Shown: positions 7,860 through 16,866 of the stretch, one piece after another
Numbering within the stretch: position 1 is the stretch's first letter
Layout: each line of letters begins with the position of its first letter
Assembly: GCA_023249375.1 (NCBI GenBank)
Contig: JAHFCT010000035.1
Span: 1 to 33,936 of the forward strand
Direction of reading: 5' to 3'
Origin: Gemmatimonadota bacterium
Lineage (GTDB): Bacteria > Gemmatimonadota > Gemmatimonadetes > Gemmatimonadales > Gemmatimonadaceae
Length of the DNA: 33,936 bases
Made by a program: the position numbers and the translations under genes
The notes under the pieces: generated by a model
What the model saw: only the letters and a program-made list of their open reading frames with translations
Databases searched by the model: none
Told to the model about the DNA's origin: nothing

Positions 7860-7895
7860 GGCGGCGTCCTTACTTGGGTGAGGACGCCGCCTTTT
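7860..7895. terminator. Hairpin terminator between convergent genes
   Basis: GGCGGCGTCCT (7860-7870) pairs perfectly with AGGACGCCGCC (7881-7891) around a 10-base loop and is followed by TTTT on the plus strand. It ends transcription of the lipoprotein gene. The stop codon of the convergent thioredoxin gene lies at the loop edge (7870-7872), so the same hairpin forms the end of that coding sequence. Confidence 0.8.
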
Positions 7896-8469
7896 CATTG
7901 AGCAGCCGCCGCACCGCCGGCTCGAGCGACGCCATCGCGAGCGGGCCGAGCACTTTGTACCGCACCTGTCCCGTGCGGTCAAGCAGCACCGAGGTGGGAT
8001 AGCCTTGCACGCCGCCGAAGGCCGTCTCCACGTCGCGCCCGACGATGGCCACCGGATACGTGATGCCGTGTTCGCGCAGAAACTTCGCAACGGCTTCCGG
8101 CCCCGCTTGATCGGCCGATAAGCCGAGAACCACCAGGCCGGCCGCTCCGTGCCGCTTCGACATCGCTTGGAGCAGCGGCATTTCCACTCGGCACGGCGGG
8201 CACCACGTGGCCCAGAAGTTCACCAGCACCACGTGACCGCGCAGTGTGCTGTCGCGTACCGGCGTGCCGTCGAGCGTGGTGACCGCGACTGACGGGTGCA
8301 GGTGCCCGCCGCTCTCGATGCCGAGGAGCGCGCCGATGTGAGGGAGAAAGCGCGGCGCCAGCCAGAGTGCGAACAGCAAGGCGGCGACTCTCCACGCTGA
8401 CAGCCAGAGGCGAAGTCCCTTGCGCTTGCGATCACGCTTTCGGACTTGGTCAGGCGGCGGGTTGGTCAC
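7870..8469 (-). CDS. Membrane-anchored TlpA-like thioredoxin-fold protein
   Basis: This 199-residue protein starts with GTG and has a very basic N-terminus, one uncleaved membrane anchor (about residues 21-50) and a periplasmic thioredoxin fold of the TlpA/ResA group. The active site is WATWCPPC with the redox cysteines at residues 90 and 93; the WCPPC pair is characteristic of cytochrome-c-maturation and thiol-reducing proteins. The cis-proline loop is GYPTSVLLD (proline at about 158). Its likely job is to reduce or shuffle thiols in exported proteins. Beside a copper-efflux locus it might keep cysteine-rich periplasmic proteins reduced, including the product of the gene at 768, but that link is inference. 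It converges on the lipoprotein gene and diverges from the amidohydrolase run, with 124 bases between the two start codons. Confidence 0.88.
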   Translation of the reverse strand: MTNPPPDQVRKRDRKRKGLRLWLSAWRVAALLFALWLAPRFLPHIGALLGIESGGHLHPSVAVTTLDGTPVRDSTLRGHVVLVNFWATWCPPCRVEMPLLQAMSKRHGAAGLVVLGLSADQAGPEAVAKFLREHGITYPVAIVGRDVETAFGGVQGYPTSVLLDRTGQVRYKVLGPLAMASLEPAVRRLLNEKAASSPK

Positions 8470-8593: not shown

Positions 8594-10339
8594 ATGGTTG
8601 CATCCTTCCGCCGCGCCGCAGCGGTCGCGATAGCCAGCGCCCTGGCTGTTGCTTCCCTCGGTGCTCAGCTCGCGTCGCCGCGCAGCATCCCGGCGACCTA
8701 CGCCATCACCAACGTTCGGCTCGTGCCGGTGACGTCTCCCGTGATTGAAAAGGGAACGATCGTCGTCCGCGACGGCCTCATTGCGGCCATGGGACCAAGT
8801 GTCGCCGTGCCGGGTGACGCGCGGGTGATTGATGGCACGGGATTGACGGTCTATCCCGGCCTGATCGACGCGTACAGCACACACGGCGTGCCGAACGCAC
8901 CGGTGCAGGGCGCCGGAGGTGGCGGTCGCGGGGGCGGTGGTGGTGGCGGATTTGGCGGACCAGCGGCGACGCCGGCTCGTTCGGCGCCGAATTCCAACTA
9001 TCCTGCCGGCTTGCAGCCCGAAGTGTCCGTGGTGGAACTGCTCAAGGCCGATGATGAAGCATTCAGCGGCCCGACGAGCGCCGGCATCACGACGGCACTG
9101 AGCGGATCCGGAAGCGGCATCTTCCAGGGACAGTCGGCGGTGATCAATCTCGCCGGCGCCGACGTTAACGCCATTGTAGTGAAGGCGGGCGTGAGCCAGA
9201 ACATCGGCTTCTCTCCGCTGCGTAATGGCGGCTATCCCAACTCGCTGATGGGCGTCTTCTCGGCGCTGCGGCAGGAGCTGCTGGACGCGCAGCACTATCG
9301 TGACGTGAAGGCGGCGTACGACAAGAGCCCGCGCGGCATGACACGCCCCGAGTTTGATCCGTCGCTCGAGGCGCTGCTTCCGGCACTCGCCGGCAAGCAG
9401 CCGGTGATCATGTACGCGTCCACGCAGCGCGAGATTGAACGCGCGCTCGATCTCGCCAGGGAGTTCGGCCTACGGCCCATAATCGCCGGCGGACTCGAGT
9501 CGCATCTGGTGGCGGCGCGGCTGAAAGCCGAGAACGTGCCGGTGTTGCTGACGCTCAACTTCCCGCGCCGCACGGCGGCGGTATCGGCTGATGCCGATCC
9601 GGAACCGATGCGTCTGCTGCGCTAACGCACTGAAGCGCCCAAGACGGCGGGCCGGTTGGCGCAGGCTGGCGTGAAGTTCGCGTTTCAGTCGGGCGGCCTT
9701 TCCACCTGGACCGATTTTCCCGGCAACGTGCAGCGCGCGGTCGAGAATGGACTGCCCGCCGATGCCGCGCTCAAGGCGCTGACCATTCAGTCCGCCGAGA
9801 TCCTTGGCGTGAGCGACCGGCTCGGCTCGCTCGAGACGGGGAAGATCGCAAATCTCACCGTGACGCGCGGCGATCTGCTCGACCGCGGCCGTGTGACGCA
9901 GTTGTTCATCGACGGCCGTCCCGTCGCGCTTCGCGCGGCAGCGACGCCCGCTGGCGGTGGCAACGCCGGCATCACGGGCACGTGGACGGTGACGGTTTCG
10001 CTCGACGGCAGCGACATGCCCACGACCTGGTCGCTGCGCGCGGATGGCACGCGCCTGCTCGGATCAATGCAGGGCGCGCTGGGCAGTCCGGAGCTTCAGG
10101 GCGGCACCATTGGCACGGACAACGAGTTCCGTTTCACCGCGTCGATCACGATGAAGGACGGCACGGAAGAGGCGACGTTCATCGGCACGCTCGATGGCAA
10201 CGCGGTGCGCGGCCGACTGGCGATCGTCGGTCACACACCGGGCACGTTCTCGGGCACGCGTCCGCAGCGTCAGGGCGGACCCGGCGCCGGCGGCCCGCCG
10301 AGTGGCAGCGCGGCCCGCACTCCGCCGGAGACCCGATAA
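8594..10339 (+). pseudogene. Amidohydrolase-like exported protein interrupted by an in-frame TAA
   Basis: One continuous frame runs from the ATG at 8594 to the TAA at 10337-10339, but it is cut by another TAA at 9623-9625. No shift of frame is needed: the family pattern simply continues after the stop (RTEAPKTAGRLAQAGVKFAF). The product would have a signal peptide (MVASFRRAAAVAIASALAVA), an amidohydrolase fold and a C-terminal beta-rich, lipocalin-like domain (GITGTWTVTVSLDGSDMP onward). Residues normally giving the HxH metal site are absent: the segment reads YPGLIDAYSTHG, and later ligand positions are also replaced (IMYASTQRE, IIAGGLESH). So even the undamaged protein was probably not a classical metal-dependent hydrolase. 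A glycine-run linker sits near residues 106-122. Alternatives are a sequencing error, or two separately translated pieces using the TTG at 9656. It heads a run of three related genes. Confidence 0.75.
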
Positions 10340-10377
10340 TGCGACGCCTTCCAATGCCCCGTCTCCTCGAGGATTCC

Positions 10378-11772
10378 ATGAAGAAACTCTTCTTGCGCGC
10401 GGCGCTGATGGCGGTTGCCGCTGGCGCACTCGGCGCGCAGGCCAAACCCGTTGTTTCGGGCGCGGGGGCCACGCTGATCAAGAACGCCACCGTGCTCACG
10501 GTGACCAAGGGAACGTTGCAGCACACGGACGTCCTGATCCAGAACGGCAAAATTGCGCAGGTGGGGCAGAACATCACCGCGCCGGCCGGTGCGACGGTGA
10601 TTGACGCCACGGGCAAGTTCCTGATGCCCGGTATCATTGATCCGCACACGCACATGATGAGCGACGCCACGAATGAAGGGTCGCTCTCGGTGACGTCGAT
10701 GGTACGCATTCAGGACGTGCTCAACCCGACGAACGTCGACATCTACCGCGCGCTGGCCGGCGGCGTGACGACGATCAACGTGCTGCACGGATCGGCCAAC
10801 ACGATTGGCGGGCAGAACGCGACCGTGAAGCTCAAGTGGGGCGATCCCGTGGAGAGCATGATGTTCCCGGGTGCGCCGCCGGGCATCAAGTTCGCGCTCG
10901 GCGAAAACGTGACGCGCAAGAACCAGAATCAGATTGTCATTCCGGGGCAGCCGACCACGCGCCGCTATCCGACCTCGCGCATGGGCCAGGAAGAGGTGAT
11001 TCGCGACGCGTTCACGCGGGCGCGCGACTACAAGGCGACGATCGACGACTACAAGGCGCGCGTGGCCAAGGGCGAGAAGAACCTCGTGGCGCCGCGGCGT
11101 GACCTTGAACTCGAGCCGTTGGTTGAAGTGCTCGAAGGCAAGCGCCTGGTGCACGCACACTCGTACCGCTCCGACGAAATGCTGATGCTGCTCAATGTCG
11201 CCGAGGAGTTCGGTTTCAAGATTCAGACGCTGCAGCACGGGCTCGAGGGCTACAAGATCGCGTCGGAAATCGCGAAGGCCGGCACTGGGCTGTCGTCATT
11301 CGCGGATGAATGGTCGTACAAGATCGAAGCGTACGATGCCATTCCGTACAACGTGTCGATCCTGATGCGCCACGGCGTGACGGCGACCATCAACTCCGAT
11401 TCGGACGAGCGGATTCGCCGCCTCAACATCGACGCCGCCAAGCTGATGCGCTACGGCGGATTGACGGAGGAAGAAGCGCTGTCCGTCATCACGATCAATG
11501 GCGCCAAGCAGCTGGGCGTGTCGGACAAGGTGGGATCCATCGAAGTAGGCAAGGACGCCGATCTCGGACTGTGGAACAGCCATCCGCTCAGCGTTTACGC
11601 GAACGTCGACAAGGTGTTCGTGGACGGCAAGGTCTACTTCGACCGCCAGCAGGACCTCGCGCAGCGCGACCAGAAGGCCAAGGAGCGCGCCGAACTTGAA
11701 AAGGCCGACGCCAATCAGGCGCCGAGCAACCGTCGTGGCGTGCAGCCGGTCCTGCCGCAGGAGGAGCGTTGA
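10378..11772 (+). CDS. Exported metal-dependent amidohydrolase (imidazolonepropionase-like)
   Basis: A 464-residue protein with a clean signal peptide (MKKLFLRAALMAVAAGALGA) and a GAGG ribosome-binding site five to six bases before the ATG at 10378, which is why I prefer it to the ATG at 10339. It has the amidohydrolase TIM-barrel with flanking beta sandwich. Metal ligands are in place: HTH at residues 90-92 (MPGIIDPHTH), VHAHS with histidines 259 and 261, LQHG with histidine 287, and aspartate 341 in NSDSDE; lysine 171 in GIKFALGENV is a candidate bridging residue. The C-terminus returns to the beta sandwich (GSIEVGKDADLGLWNSHPLS). It should hydrolyse an amide or cyclic amide bond in the periplasm; the substrate cannot be told. 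It is the only one of the three tandem paralogues with a complete metal site. Confidence 0.88.
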   Translation: MKKLFLRAALMAVAAGALGAQAKPVVSGAGATLIKNATVLTVTKGTLQHTDVLIQNGKIAQVGQNITAPAGATVIDATGKFLMPGIIDPHTHMMSDATNEGSLSVTSMVRIQDVLNPTNVDIYRALAGGVTTINVLHGSANTIGGQNATVKLKWGDPVESMMFPGAPPGIKFALGENVTRKNQNQIVIPGQPTTRRYPTSRMGQEEVIRDAFTRARDYKATIDDYKARVAKGEKNLVAPRRDLELEPLVEVLEGKRLVHAHSYRSDEMLMLLNVAEEFGFKIQTLQHGLEGYKIASEIAKAGTGLSSFADEWSYKIEAYDAIPYNVSILMRHGVTATINSDSDERIRRLNIDAAKLMRYGGLTEEEALSVITINGAKQLGVSDKVGSIEVGKDADLGLWNSHPLSVYANVDKVFVDGKVYFDRQQDLAQRDQKAKERAELEKADANQAPSNRRGVQPVLPQEER

Positions 11773-11774
11773 AC

Positions 11775-13112
11775 ATGCGTCGCATCTGTATTGCAGGTTC
11801 AGCCGTCGCGCTGTGTGTCGCGGCGCCGGCGCGCGCGCAACTCGGATCGTTCAATCCGCCGCCGGGACCACAGAAGACGTTCGCCATCACCAACGCGCAC
11901 ATCGTGCCGGTGAGTGGACCGGAAATCGCGAGCGGCACGGTGGTGATCAGCGCCGGCAAGATTCAGGCGGTCGGTGCGTCGGTGACGGTGCCCGCCGGTG
12001 CCGAAGTGGTGGACGCCAAGGGACTGCGCGTCTACCCGGGCATGATGGACGCCGGCACTTCGATTGGTCTGTCGGAAATCGGACAGGGCGCCAACTCCAC
12101 CGTGGACGTCAGCGAGGTGGGGAGCTTTAACCCGAACGCGCAGGCGGTCTTTGCCATCAACCCGCACTCGGCGCACATCGGCGTGGCGCGTGTGGTGGGC
12201 ATCACGCACGTGGTGTCGCGTCCGACGGGCGGCATTCTCTCAGGGCAGGCGGCGCTGGTGAACCTTGCCGGTTCCACCGCACCGCAGATGGCGGTGGTGC
12301 GCAACCTCGCGACGGTAATTGAACTGCCGCGTTCCGGTTTTGGTGGCCGCGGCTTTGGCGGATTCCTCGCCGCGCAGAACGCGGCGAACACGCAGGACGT
12401 CAATCGCACGCGCACGCGCCAGCTCGATTCGCTGCGCACGCTGCTCAAGGATGCCGAAGCGTACGGCCGCGCGATGGACGCGTACGCGAAGGACAAGTCG
12501 CTGCCGCGCCCCAAGCAGGACGTGGTGCTGGCGTCACTCGTGCAGGCGGTGCGCGGCAAGATGCCGGTGCTGATGATTGCCGACCGCGCCAACGACATCA
12601 AGGAAGCGGTGGGCTTCGCCGAGGAGAACAAGCTCAAGCCAATCATCGTGGGCGGGCGGGATTCGTGGCAGGTGACATCGTTCCTGAAGGACCACGATGT
12701 GCCGGTGATCATCACGTCGGTGATGGAGTTGCCGTCGCGCGAGGATGATCCGTACGACGTCAACTATTCCGCGCCGGCCAAGCTCGCGCAGGGCGGCGTG
12801 CGGTTTGCGATCACGTCGGGTGATGCAGGTTCCGAAGTGCGCAATCTCCCGTATGTGGCGGGCATGGCGTCGGCGTTCGGGCTGAGCAAGGACGACGCGC
12901 TCAAGTCCGTGACGCTGTGGCCGGCGCAGATCTTTGGCGTTGCTGATAAGTTCGGGACGATCGAGCCGGGCAAGGTGGCCAACCTGGTGGTCACGGATGG
13001 CGACATGCTCGAGGCGAAGACCAACACGAAGTACCTCTTTATTGATGGGCGCATGGTGCCGCTCGACACCAAGCACACCGACCTCAACAACAAGTTCAAG
13101 GACCGTCCGTGA
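11775..13112 (+). CDS. Exported amidohydrolase-fold protein lacking metal ligands
   Basis: This 445-residue paralogue has a signal peptide (MRRICIAGSAVALCVAAPARAQ) and an AGGAGG-like ribosome-binding site before the ATG at 11775. Both halves of the amidohydrolase beta sandwich are present: AITNAHIVPVSGPEIASG at the start and FGTIEPGKVANLVVTDGDM near the end. The metal-binding residues are replaced throughout. PGxIDxHxH reads YPGMMDAGTSIG, the HxH of strand five reads IADRAND, the following histidine region reads IIVGGRDSW, and only an aspartate-containing FAITSGDAG remains. It resembles the interrupted first gene more than the intact second one. It may act as a binding or structural partner of the active paralogue, or have a different chemistry. 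Its stop overlaps the GTG start of the M20 peptidase by four bases, so they are co-translated. Confidence 0.85.
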   Translation: MRRICIAGSAVALCVAAPARAQLGSFNPPPGPQKTFAITNAHIVPVSGPEIASGTVVISAGKIQAVGASVTVPAGAEVVDAKGLRVYPGMMDAGTSIGLSEIGQGANSTVDVSEVGSFNPNAQAVFAINPHSAHIGVARVVGITHVVSRPTGGILSGQAALVNLAGSTAPQMAVVRNLATVIELPRSGFGGRGFGGFLAAQNAANTQDVNRTRTRQLDSLRTLLKDAEAYGRAMDAYAKDKSLPRPKQDVVLASLVQAVRGKMPVLMIADRANDIKEAVGFAEENKLKPIIVGGRDSWQVTSFLKDHDVPVIITSVMELPSREDDPYDVNYSAPAKLAQGGVRFAITSGDAGSEVRNLPYVAGMASAFGLSKDDALKSVTLWPAQIFGVADKFGTIEPGKVANLVVTDGDMLEAKTNTKYLFIDGRMVPLDTKHTDLNNKFKDRP

Positions 13113-14536
13113 ACAAGATCCGTTGCTACGCTGTTCTCGCACTGTCCGCCGTTGCAGTCACCGCCGGCGCACAGCAGAAGCCGCTGACGCCCACGCAGCA
13201 GTTGGCGCACGACGTGTACAAGGAACTGGTTGAGCTGAACACGTCGGTCTGGACCGGTAATACGACGCCGGCGGCGAATGCGATGGCCAAGCGATTCCGC
13301 GACGCCGGCTTTCCGGAGAAGGACATCTTCGTCGGCGGTCCGACGCCGAAGAAGCACAATCTCGTCGTGCGCTATCGCGGCAAGGGCGGCACGGCCGCGC
13401 CGAAGCCCGTGCTGCTGCTCGCACACCTCGACGTCGTCGAGGCGCTGAAGGCCGATTGGTCCAACGATCTCGATCCGTTCAAGTTCACGGAGAAGGACGG
13501 CTTCTATTATGGACGTGGCACCGCGGACGATAAGGCGATGGCATCGCTGTTCGTGGCGGCAGCCATTCGCCTGAAGAAGGAAGGCTACGTCCCCCAGCGT
13601 GACATCATCATCGCGCTGACCACCGATGAAGAAGGCGGCGCCTACAACGGCGTGGACTGGCTGCTCAAGAATCACCGCGACCTGATGGACGCCGCCTGGG
13701 TGATCAACGAAGGCGGCGGCGGCGCGCTGCGCGATGGCAAGCCGCTGCTGCATTCGGTGCAGGCGGCGGAGAAAGTCTACGCCGACTTCACGCTGCGCGT
13801 CACGAATGCCGGCGGCCATTCGTCGGTGCCGCGCGCCGACAATGCCATCTATCAATTGTCCGAGGGACTGGTGAAGCTGTCCAAGTACCAGTTCCCGGTG
13901 GAGCTGAATCCGGTATCGCGCGCCTTCTTCGAGAAGTCGGCGTCCGCCGAGAAGCCCGAAATGGGCGCGGCGATGACGGCCCTCGCCAAGGACCCGTCGG
14001 ATGCGGCCGCGGCGGCGGTGATCGGCAAGGACCCGCGCTACAGCTCCATGATGCGCACGACGTGCGTGGCGACGATGCTCAACGGTGGTCACGCCACCAA
14101 CGCGCTGCCGCAGCTCGCCGAGGCGAACGTCAACTGCCGCATGGCCCCAACCGCGTCCAAGGAGTCGGTGCGCGCGACCATCGCGAAGGTGGTTGGTGAT
14201 CCGGGCATCGCCGTCTTCGACACGACCACCGAAGATCGCGCGTCACCGCCGTCCGAGATGCGCCCCGAAGTCATGGGCGCCGTCGAGAAACTGACGAAGG
14301 AGATGTTCGGCGACATTCCGGTCGTGCCCACGATGTCGACCGGTGCCACCGACTCGCGCTACTTCCGTGCCTTGGGCGTGCCGTCGTTCGGCGTGTCGGG
14401 GCTGTTCAGTGATCCCACGGTTGACGCTCGCGCGCACGGTCGCGACGAACGCGTGCGCATCGAGTGGTATTACAAAGCGCAGGAGTTCCTGTACCAGCTC
14501 ACGCGCCAGTTGTCATCCAGCGTTCCAGTCCCTTGA
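13109..14536 (+). CDS. Exported M20-family metallopeptidase
   Basis: A 475-residue zinc peptidase of the M20 clan with a signal peptide (cleavage near AGAQQ, residue 22) and GTG start in a GTGA overlap with the preceding gene. Recognisable motifs are LLLAHLDVVE (histidine 106), GRGTADDKA (bridging aspartate 140), TTDEEGG (catalytic glutamates at 174-175), NEGGGG (glutamate 201), the dimerisation-domain motif NAGGHSSVP, and the C-terminal AHGRDER with the last metal histidine. M20 enzymes remove single amino acids from short peptides or deacylate amino acids. Downstream of an amidohydrolase in the same transcript, this suggests periplasmic release of amino acids from peptides or N-acyl/cyclic derivatives. 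The substrate is unknown. Confidence 0.92.
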   Translation: MNKIRCYAVLALSAVAVTAGAQQKPLTPTQQLAHDVYKELVELNTSVWTGNTTPAANAMAKRFRDAGFPEKDIFVGGPTPKKHNLVVRYRGKGGTAAPKPVLLLAHLDVVEALKADWSNDLDPFKFTEKDGFYYGRGTADDKAMASLFVAAAIRLKKEGYVPQRDIIIALTTDEEGGAYNGVDWLLKNHRDLMDAAWVINEGGGGALRDGKPLLHSVQAAEKVYADFTLRVTNAGGHSSVPRADNAIYQLSEGLVKLSKYQFPVELNPVSRAFFEKSASAEKPEMGAAMTALAKDPSDAAAAAVIGKDPRYSSMMRTTCVATMLNGGHATNALPQLAEANVNCRMAPTASKESVRATIAKVVGDPGIAVFDTTTEDRASPPSEMRPEVMGAVEKLTKEMFGDIPVVPTMSTGATDSRYFRALGVPSFGVSGLFSDPTVDARAHGRDERVRIEWYYKAQEFLYQLTRQLSSSVPVP

Positions 14537-14598: not shown

Positions 14599-16866
14599 AT
14601 GCCGTTCTTGTCGATGCCGCGCCTGCTGGCCGCGGCGCTCGTCTGCGCGTCTGCCGTTCTGCAAGCACAGTCTCGCCCGATCCGAACCGGGTCGGCTACC
14701 GTCACCAGCACACCGCCCGTCATTGACGGCTTGCTCACTGATGCGGCCTGGCGCTCGGCAACCGTCTTTGCCGGTTTCACGCAGCGCGAGCCGCAGGAAG
14801 GCGCGGCGGTCAGCGAACGCACCGAGGTGCGCCTGCTCACCGACGGTGAGGCGCTGTATATCGGGGCGTGGATGTATGACCGCGACGCGGCGGGAATTGT
14901 CGCCGGCGAGAAGATCCGCGACGTCACGCTCACCAACAGCGACTACTTCGGCATTCTGCTCGACACCTACAAGGACCGGCAGAACGGGTTCCTGTTCGCT
15001 ACCACGCCGGCGGGCGTCGAGTACGACGGCCAGATCATTCGTGAGGGCGAGGGCGGCGGCGTCTCGCTGAGTGGGCAGACCCGTGCGCAGTCGGGCGCAC
15101 TCGGCGGCTTCAACCTGAACTGGGACGGCAGCTGGAAGGTGGCGACCTCGCACGATTCGGCGGGGTGGTACGCCGAGTTTCGCATTCCGTTTTCGACGCT
15201 GCGCTATGGTGGCGGCGCGCGGCAGGATTGGGGGCTCAACCTCGTGCGCATGATTCGGCGGCGCAACGAAGAGTCGTTCTGGTCTCCTATTTCGCGTCAG
15301 CTCAACCTCTATCGCATGTCGATGGCCGGCGACCTCACGGGACTGCAGGTACCGGTGCGGCGCGTGGCCACGGTGACGCCGTATGCGCTGGGCACGGCGC
15401 AGCGCAACTTCGCGACGTCCGCAAGCGCCACGTATCCCACCGCGTTCGGTGTGGATGCCAAGTACGGCGTGACGCCAAGCCTGACGCTGGACCTCACGCT
15501 CAACACCGACTTCGCGCAGGTGGAGGTGGACGAGCAGCGCACCAACCTCACCCGTTTCCCGCTGTTTTTCCCGGAGAAGCGCCCGTTCTTCCTCGAGAAT
15601 GCGGGGACGTTTGCCTCGGGGACGCCGCAGGCGGTGGATCTCTTCTTCACGCGGCGCATCGGCATTGACTCGACGGGCCAGCCGGTGAAGATCCGCGGCG
15701 GCGGCCGGCTCACGGGCCGCGTGGGCGGCACGACAGTGGGACTGATGCAGATCTTCACCGCCGAGAACGCCGGCGTGCAGGCCGCCCAGTCATTTACCGT
15801 GGCGCGTGCCATCAAGGAAATCGGACGCCGTTCACGCGTGGGCATCATCGGCGTGCAGCGACTCGGCACGGGAACGCGCGTGGCGCCGCTCTGCACCGCC
15901 CTGCCCTCGTGCGGCGCGCTCCCCGAAGACGTCAACCGCACCCTCGGCGTCGATGGCCGGCTAGGACTCGGCGATGCATGGACCGTGGACGCCTGGGCCG
16001 CCAAGACCGAAACGCCGGGACGCAGCGGCGACGACTTTGGCGGGAGCGTGCGCGCCGTGTACCTGACGCGCGACTGGAGTCACAGCGTTCGCGTCCTGCG
16101 CACCGGCGGCGACTTCAATCCCGAGGTCGGGTTCAACAGCCGCACGCCAGGATACACTTTCACGGAAGTGCAGTTCATGCGCATGGTGCGCCGGCCCGAA
16201 TGGAAGCACGTGCGAGAGTGGAACCCGCACCTCACGTGGCGCGAGTACTACGGCTTCGACGGGTTCCACCAGTCGGGGCAGTGGCATTTCGATTTCACGG
16301 AGTTCGCGTTTCAGAAAGGCGGCCGGTTTGGCCCGGAGATCAATCTCTACCACGAGGGGCTGCAGAAACCCTTTGCGATTGCGCCCAACGTGACCCTGCC
16401 CGCCGGCGGCTACGATTTCCTGAACGTTGGCCTCGATTGGGAGACCAATGCGGCAGCCACGTTGTCGATGTCGATGCGCGGCGACTTCGCCGGGTTCTAC
16501 AACGGCACGCGCAGCGGTGGTACCATGACCGCGACGTACCGCCGCGGCGCGTCCATCACGTCATCGCTGCTGCTCGATTACAACGACGTGACGCTCGATC
16601 AGGGGCACTTCATTCGGTCGATCATTGGCGCGCGCGTGGCATACTTCTTCACGCCGCGCGTCTTCATCCAGTCACTGGCGCAGTTCAACGACCAGGCCTC
16701 CGCGTGGACGACCAACGTGCGTTTCGGCTGGCTGAACACGGCGGCCACGGGTCTCTTCATCGTGCTCAACGACGGAGAGCAGGCCGATTCGTTCTTCAGC
16801 TGGCAGCGGCCGACGTCGCGCGCGCTCACGGTGAAGTTCACGCGGCAGTTCGGCACGGGACAATAG
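14599..16866 (+). CDS. DUF5916 outer-membrane protein with N-terminal CBM9-like domain
   Basis: A 755-residue protein with a signal peptide (PRLLAAALVCASAVLQAQ), then a CBM9-like beta-sandwich domain (PPVIDGLLTDAAWRSATVF; LYIGAWMYDRDA; GWYAEFRIPFSTLRYG) and a long region rich in alternating beta strands that reads as an outer-membrane barrel. The segment FFPEKRPFFLENAGTF is the hallmark I associate with DUF5916. The last residues (FTRQFGTGQ) do not end in the typical aromatic. Members of this family are frequent in Bacteroidota and Gemmatimonadota; their function is not established, though the CBM9-like domain suggests ligand binding at the cell surface. It follows the peptidase gene in the same direction after a hairpin. 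A start at the ATG at 14614 is also possible. Confidence 0.85.
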   Translation: MPFLSMPRLLAAALVCASAVLQAQSRPIRTGSATVTSTPPVIDGLLTDAAWRSATVFAGFTQREPQEGAAVSERTEVRLLTDGEALYIGAWMYDRDAAGIVAGEKIRDVTLTNSDYFGILLDTYKDRQNGFLFATTPAGVEYDGQIIREGEGGGVSLSGQTRAQSGALGGFNLNWDGSWKVATSHDSAGWYAEFRIPFSTLRYGGGARQDWGLNLVRMIRRRNEESFWSPISRQLNLYRMSMAGDLTGLQVPVRRVATVTPYALGTAQRNFATSASATYPTAFGVDAKYGVTPSLTLDLTLNTDFAQVEVDEQRTNLTRFPLFFPEKRPFFLENAGTFASGTPQAVDLFFTRRIGIDSTGQPVKIRGGGRLTGRVGGTTVGLMQIFTAENAGVQAAQSFTVARAIKEIGRRSRVGIIGVQRLGTGTRVAPLCTALPSCGALPEDVNRTLGVDGRLGLGDAWTVDAWAAKTETPGRSGDDFGGSVRAVYLTRDWSHSVRVLRTGGDFNPEVGFNSRTPGYTFTEVQFMRMVRRPEWKHVREWNPHLTWREYYGFDGFHQSGQWHFDFTEFAFQKGGRFGPEINLYHEGLQKPFAIAPNVTLPAGGYDFLNVGLDWETNAAATLSMSMRGDFAGFYNGTRSGGTMTATYRRGASITSSLLLDYNDVTLDQGHFIRSIIGARVAYFFTPRVFIQSLAQFNDQASAWTTNVRFGWLNTAATGLFIVLNDGEQADSFFSWQRPTSRALTVKFTRQFGTGQ

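Follow-up and report, generated by a model that had tools for sequence, protein, structure and literature searches.

Eukaryotes offer well-known examples of active enzymes with pseudoenzyme partners, and so do a few bacterial complexes. The animal CRMPs (dihydropyrimidinase-related proteins) have the amidohydrolase fold without enzymatic function and form hetero-oligomers, and the heterodimeric M16 peptidases combine an active and an inactive subunit as one unit. By sequence and fold, the best match of two of the genes described below, g2 and g3, is an amidohydrolase of Thermotoga maritima MSB8 (PDB 3OOQ), for which literature searches gave no assigned function. Its relatives in Bacillota and Actinomycetota are, at the loci examined, single genes with no visible signal peptide and no metal-less partner. 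In Pseudomonas aeruginosa, ATCase needs an inactive pseudo-dihydroorotase for its activity (PMC7053772). Is there any bacterial locus in which an active amidohydrolase is accompanied by dead copies of its own fold? Here we describe a gene trio of this kind, of which the literature searches returned no account.

The window, that is, the whole stretch of 33,936 nucleotides that was analysed, is contig C95 of a Gemmatimonadota genome (3.8 Mb in 120 contigs, 96% complete). Three tandem amidohydrolase-fold genes, g1, g2 and g3 in that order, run on its plus strand from the ATG at 8594 to the last stop at 13110-13112. The first-pass annotation had placed the three genes correctly and had overlooked an in-frame TAA in g1. 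The genes and their junctions are as follows.

8594..10339, plus strand: g1, first metal-less amidohydrolase-fold gene, with signal peptide; stop at 10337-10339
10337..10341, plus strand: TAATG in the sequence, the g1 stop overlapping an upstream ATG of g2 (coupling-type overlap)
10378..11772, plus strand: g2, active-type amidohydrolase, with signal peptide MKKLFLRAALMAVAAGALGAQA; stop at 11770-11772
11769..13112, plus strand: g3, second metal-less amidohydrolase-fold gene, with signal peptide; start at TTG 11769 or ATG 11775
13109..14536, plus strand: M20 family metallopeptidase; its start overlaps the g3 stop (GTGA)

The candidate TTG start of g3 overlaps the g2 stop as TTGA. With the overlaps TAATG, TTGA and GTGA at each junction, the M20 gene probably shares one transcription unit with the trio, and an M20 peptidase gene lies downstream in 7 loci of the neighbour comparison. 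Read by eye from the sequence, a Sec-type signal peptide begins each of g1, g2 and g3. Two other neighbours recur: a divergent thioredoxin-like gene on the minus strand (7870-8469), kept beside the trio in 7 loci, and a DUF5916 protein gene downstream (14599-16866), whose relatives lie close to the trio at about ten loci. At a second locus of the same genome (L011, 3841-6506 of G000:C26), a GDPD-family gene is followed by an active plus metal-less pair, which is of the shorter g2-g3 type.

Which of the three proteins could bind catalytic metals? Six ligand columns were read from an alignment with 3OOQ, and all six are occupied in g2 (HHEHHD, shared with 3OOQ) at these positions.

10645..10653, plus strand: beta-1 HTH ligands of g2, H107 and H109 of P0001, from the 3OOQ alignment
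10903..10905, plus strand: beta-4 Glu ligand of g2, E193, GEN motif, from the same alignment
11158..11160, plus strand: beta-5 His ligand of g2, H278, from the same alignment
11236..11238, plus strand: beta-6 His ligand of g2, H304, QHG motif, from the same alignment
11398..11400, plus strand: beta-8 Asp of g2, D358, NSDSD motif, from the same alignment

The g2 motifs read DPHTHM, VHAHS, LQHGL and NSDSD, so that HTH, HAH, QHG and NSDSD are all present, as the first-pass annotation had said of the middle gene; the beta-4 Glu is a sixth ligand beyond its description. It was also right about the altered first motif and the lost later histidines of the other two genes: at the position of the first motif g1 carries YPGLIDAYSTHG and g3 carries YPGMMDAGTSIG, and each has 0 of the six ligands. 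Thus g2 has the ligands of a catalytic amidohydrolase on strands 1, 4, 5, 6 and 8, while g1 and g3 do not. The same contrast was found in a survey of 214 domains together with the window trio. HHEHHD is present in 73 of 73 g2 copies of the trio and pair families, while the full set occurs in none of their g1 or g3 copies. In one g1 subclade the first His and last Asp survive, apparently an intermediate stage of erosion. Six further copies classed as g2 (L083-L086, L091 and L093) read HHP, HHA or HHT and then HHD; they come from a more distantly related family of pairs, and a metal-less neighbour stands beside each of them. L095 is similar. The active-type members of these seven pairs have HH.HHD without the beta-4 Glu, and the pairs are sometimes fused (834-836 aa, or within 1413 aa).

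If the metal site is gone, do g1 and g3 carry out a different, metal-independent reaction on the same fold, as the first-pass annotation had proposed as one option? Long-term purifying selection on both genes with the metal set absent is a point on the side of such new chemistry. However, substitute ligands, which would have spoken against the first claim, were not seen: every His or Cys column stays below 70% in g3 and below 52% in g1, so there is no new conserved His/Cys cluster, and conserved polar residues are few in g1 and g3 compared with about 50 in g2. No new conserved set of catalytic-type residues has taken the place of the old pocket columns, so nothing positively favours this option. 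Nor are g1 and g3 found without an active partner among the 180 genomes described below, contig-end cases aside, and we consider a new chemistry very unlikely.

The loss of ligands does not appear to have removed the fold. The predicted model of g3 (pLDDT 82, pTM 0.82) keeps the barrel, and its best PDB match by far is 3OOQ (E 1.3e-32, TM 0.74/0.85). Confidence is low at residues 101-116 and 189-204, which take in the loop that follows strand 1, immediately beyond the position of HxH in g2. In the sequence search against PDB, g2 matches 3OOQ with E 7e-63 (next best 2e-16) and g3 matches it with E 1.5e-31; CRMPs are among the distant matches. Pfam PF01979 is above its cut-off for g2, g3 and the part of g1 after its in-frame stop, and the 343 residues of g1 before the stop have zero Pfam matches. 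Two features of g1 were not in the first description.

9623..9625, plus strand: in-frame TAA interrupting g1 in the window's assembly; GAA/GAG (Glu) in relatives
9950..10336, plus strand: C-terminal extension of g1, a predicted eight-stranded beta barrel, from the model of the fused relative L037

The strands of the predicted extra domain run from E438 to E532 in the model of L037:4806-7766 (residues 438-532). Pfam does not recognise this domain, and g1 matches nothing in Pfam beyond Amidohydro_1/3. The extension is missing in several lineages.

The stop divides g1 into 343 aa and a 237-aa remainder whose frame is open to 10336, with the second half of the beta-sandwich beyond it; if the stop is real, the first product would lose the end of the barrel and that sandwich half. 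Are the metal-less genes then decaying pseudogenes or neutral duplicates? Besides the nonsense codon in the window, which makes decay possible for this one g1, both g1 and g3 outpace g2 in evolution (mean tree distances 1.99 for g1, 1.60 for g3 and 1.13 for g2). At the family level, however, decay is contradicted by pairwise dN/dS against close relatives, which is 0.13-0.17 for g1 and 0.10-0.15 for g3, similar to 0.12-0.18 for g2; over this short range the dead copies are constrained as strongly as the live one. The other genus members, and almost every complete locus examined, also have frames open over their full length, and the metal-less genes persist across phyla and fuse to g2. Decay as an explanation of the family is thus hardly tenable. 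The TAA itself is peculiar to the window's assembly among the genomes checked and is absent from the six other genus members carrying g1. In comparison with relatives, g1 is as constrained after it as before it, which suggests that the stop either arose recently or is an error of assembly. It may be a nonsense mutation, an assembly error or a site of readthrough, and the window trio may accordingly be recently damaged, misassembled, or working without full-length g1.

How general is the arrangement? An initial scan of genome contigs gave 26 loci in Gemmatimonadota and Acidobacteriota, and the complete ones were all in the order g1-g2-g3. Profiles of g2 and g3 were then searched in 81 Gemmatimonadota and 99 Acidobacteriota genomes. 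Over these 180 genomes, 122 g2 and 121 g3 were found, and all were neighbours save five matches that sit at, or fit with, contig ends. Among the Gemmatimonadota genomes, 67 carry both genes, with 77 g2 and 77 g3 in all, and no other carries either; g2 adjoins g3 in 76 of 77 cases, the single exception being on contig ends, and the loci comprise 47 trios and 29 g2-g3 pairs. Since these 29 pairs have no g1, g1 is dispensable in some lineages. The 45 g2 and 44 g3 of Acidobacteriota likewise share one set of 42 genomes, with g2 adjoining g3 in 43 of 45 and the remainder consistent with contig ends (the end at G176:C118 is presumed). Thus the linkage is obligate: contig-end cases aside, no g3 without an active g2 neighbour was found in the 180 genomes, which bears out the expectation that the metal-less forms accompany an active one. 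Candidate orphans were rejected one by one: those in G005, G043 and G036 lie at contig ends, and next to the extra g1 of G075 lies a g2 that is partial and broken in frame. The pattern is conserved in far more than 100 genomes from two phyla, which excludes a chance origin.

Plasmid records extend the range further. A pair is present in Qipengyuania and in Novosphingobium, a trio whose frames are broken in Hymenobacter (Bacteroidota), and a lone active gene in Acetoanaerobium, Cytobacillus and Nonomuraea. Overall, trios are found in at least three phyla and pairs in others; Gemmatimonadota and Alphaproteobacteria have pairs of an active and a metal-less gene, and the lone active enzyme is found in Bacillota, Actinomycetota and Thermotoga. 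The Hymenobacter trio (L098, 4275-8696) is annotated as separate short amidohydrolases, and its several frame breaks are possibly sequencing errors.

Why have the three genes stayed together? The strongest evidence comes from fusions. Single frames join g1 and g2 in many genomes (L037, L042, L044, L050, L056, L057, L063, L068-L074, L076, L077 and L097) and g2 and g3 in four loci (L082 and L087-L089). In L094, from Acidobacteriota, all three are in one frame of 1361 aa, with acidic linkers joining the domains and a signal peptide at the N-terminus and nowhere else. The fusions are colinear with the operon, the order being invariably g1, g2, g3, and same-order fusions of all combinations point to a stoichiometric assembly. 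A unit kept together, and often fused, across several phyla is thus probably a mixed complex, and the one-frame fusions of metal-less and active proteins strongly favour the hetero-oligomer that had been suggested from the window alone. In the AlphaFold model of the natural g1-g2 fusion L037, whose alignment had two rows read through an in-frame stop as anchors, the parts are confident (pLDDT 81) and the whole has pTM 0.51, so that domain packing is not defined by the model. Fusion is also found between enzymes that act sequentially without a complex.

The three genes are co-inherited as well. Across 24 trios the distances of g1, g2 and g3 correlate with r 0.85-0.86, in distances all taken from one joint tree and with a contribution of common host ancestry to r; 0 of 2000 permutations were as high, the permuted maxima being 0.31-0.36.

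Our reading, to which we give a probability of roughly 70%, is that the trio encodes a secreted (periplasmic) hetero-oligomer in which two pseudo-subunits with a structural or regulatory role accompany one catalytic subunit. In this complex g2 would be the sole catalytic subunit, a metal-dependent enzyme of the 3OOQ type with the beta-1 HxH, beta-4 Glu, beta-5 and beta-6 His and beta-8 Asp. The same-fold descendants g1 and g3, without metal ligands, most likely took subunit positions of an ancestral homo-oligomer. We infer for them a supporting role: they may act on the stability of g2, on its regulation, or on its substrate access by completing or shaping it. From fusion and linkage, we also infer physical contact and a 1:1:1 stoichiometry. 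Could g1 and g3 instead be binding proteins or scavengers, capturing substrate or product near g2 with no stable complex? The signal peptides on all three proteins and the barrel retained in the g3 model would suit this, and a POT transporter by one alphaproteobacterial pair and the M20 gene of the window fit peptide handling. However, fixed-order fusions of all combinations and near-perfect adjacency indicate stoichiometric assembly, and polar residues are seldom conserved in g1 and g3, against about 50 in g2. We therefore regard separate binding proteins as rather unlikely.

What is the substrate of the proposed complex? The conserved neighbours give weak hints. A peptide or an N-acyl amino acid is possible, from the M20 gene in the operon, the POT gene beside the alphaproteobacterial pair and prolidase-like structural matches of g3. 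The POT-family peptide transporter gene (L099, 4126-5724) lies directly upstream of the Qipengyuania pair, which is followed by an FKBP isomerase gene. A bolder version of the hetero-oligomer, which we put forward only tentatively, is an obligate secreted assembly with a composite or allosterically gated active site, in which the dead pockets would be ligand sensors or substrate guides and one active with two dead subunits would be a general architecture that arose by duplication of a stand-alone enzyme.

The order of events may be read from the tree, in which one branch (SH-aLRT 91-92) parts all active from all metal-less proteins and g1 forms one clade. The metal site thus seems to have been lost once, early on, in one copy of a duplicated gene, which gave a pair of the g2-g3 type; a further duplication then gave g1. 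Also compatible with the hetero-oligomer is that the g1 and g3 types shed their ligands independently, not once before duplicating. One g1 clade still has two ligands, and the AU test does not formally reject a grouping of g1 with the active proteins (p-AU 0.073). The independent-loss tree is worse by 22.6 log units, however, and the best trees put all metal-less proteins on one side of the branch, a pattern that fast evolution of the metal-less forms could mimic; independent loss is thus doubtful while keeping some chance.

Compared with known systems, the trio is outside every characterised hetero-complex family considered. Unlike the stand-alone 3OOQ-type genes (L101-L103), g2 nearly always adjoins g3. 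Heterodimeric M16 peptidases are unrelated in fold and chemistry and serve as analogy only, while the CRMPs are eukaryotic, belong to the dihydropyrimidinase branch and form no operon with one active member. A precedent on this fold is P. aeruginosa ATCase, in which an inactive amidohydrolase-fold subunit is likewise present, required there and stoichiometric with the catalytic subunit (PMC7053772). Its partner is an unrelated cytoplasmic transcarbamoylase, while the partner in the trio is a secreted, active paralogue of the same fold; no transcarbamoylase gene is present at the window trio, whose neighbours are amidohydrolases and the M20 peptidase. The trio is thus a real and general observation, and genomics supports well its probable hetero-oligomeric nature. 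It is a conserved operon in which two distinct dead paralogues flank one active enzyme, and it is found in every state of fusion. One consequence is that annotating all three genes as amidohydrolases is misleading for two of three. Another is that lone enzyme, pair, trio and full fusion can be compared directly, as a natural series on why dead copies persist.
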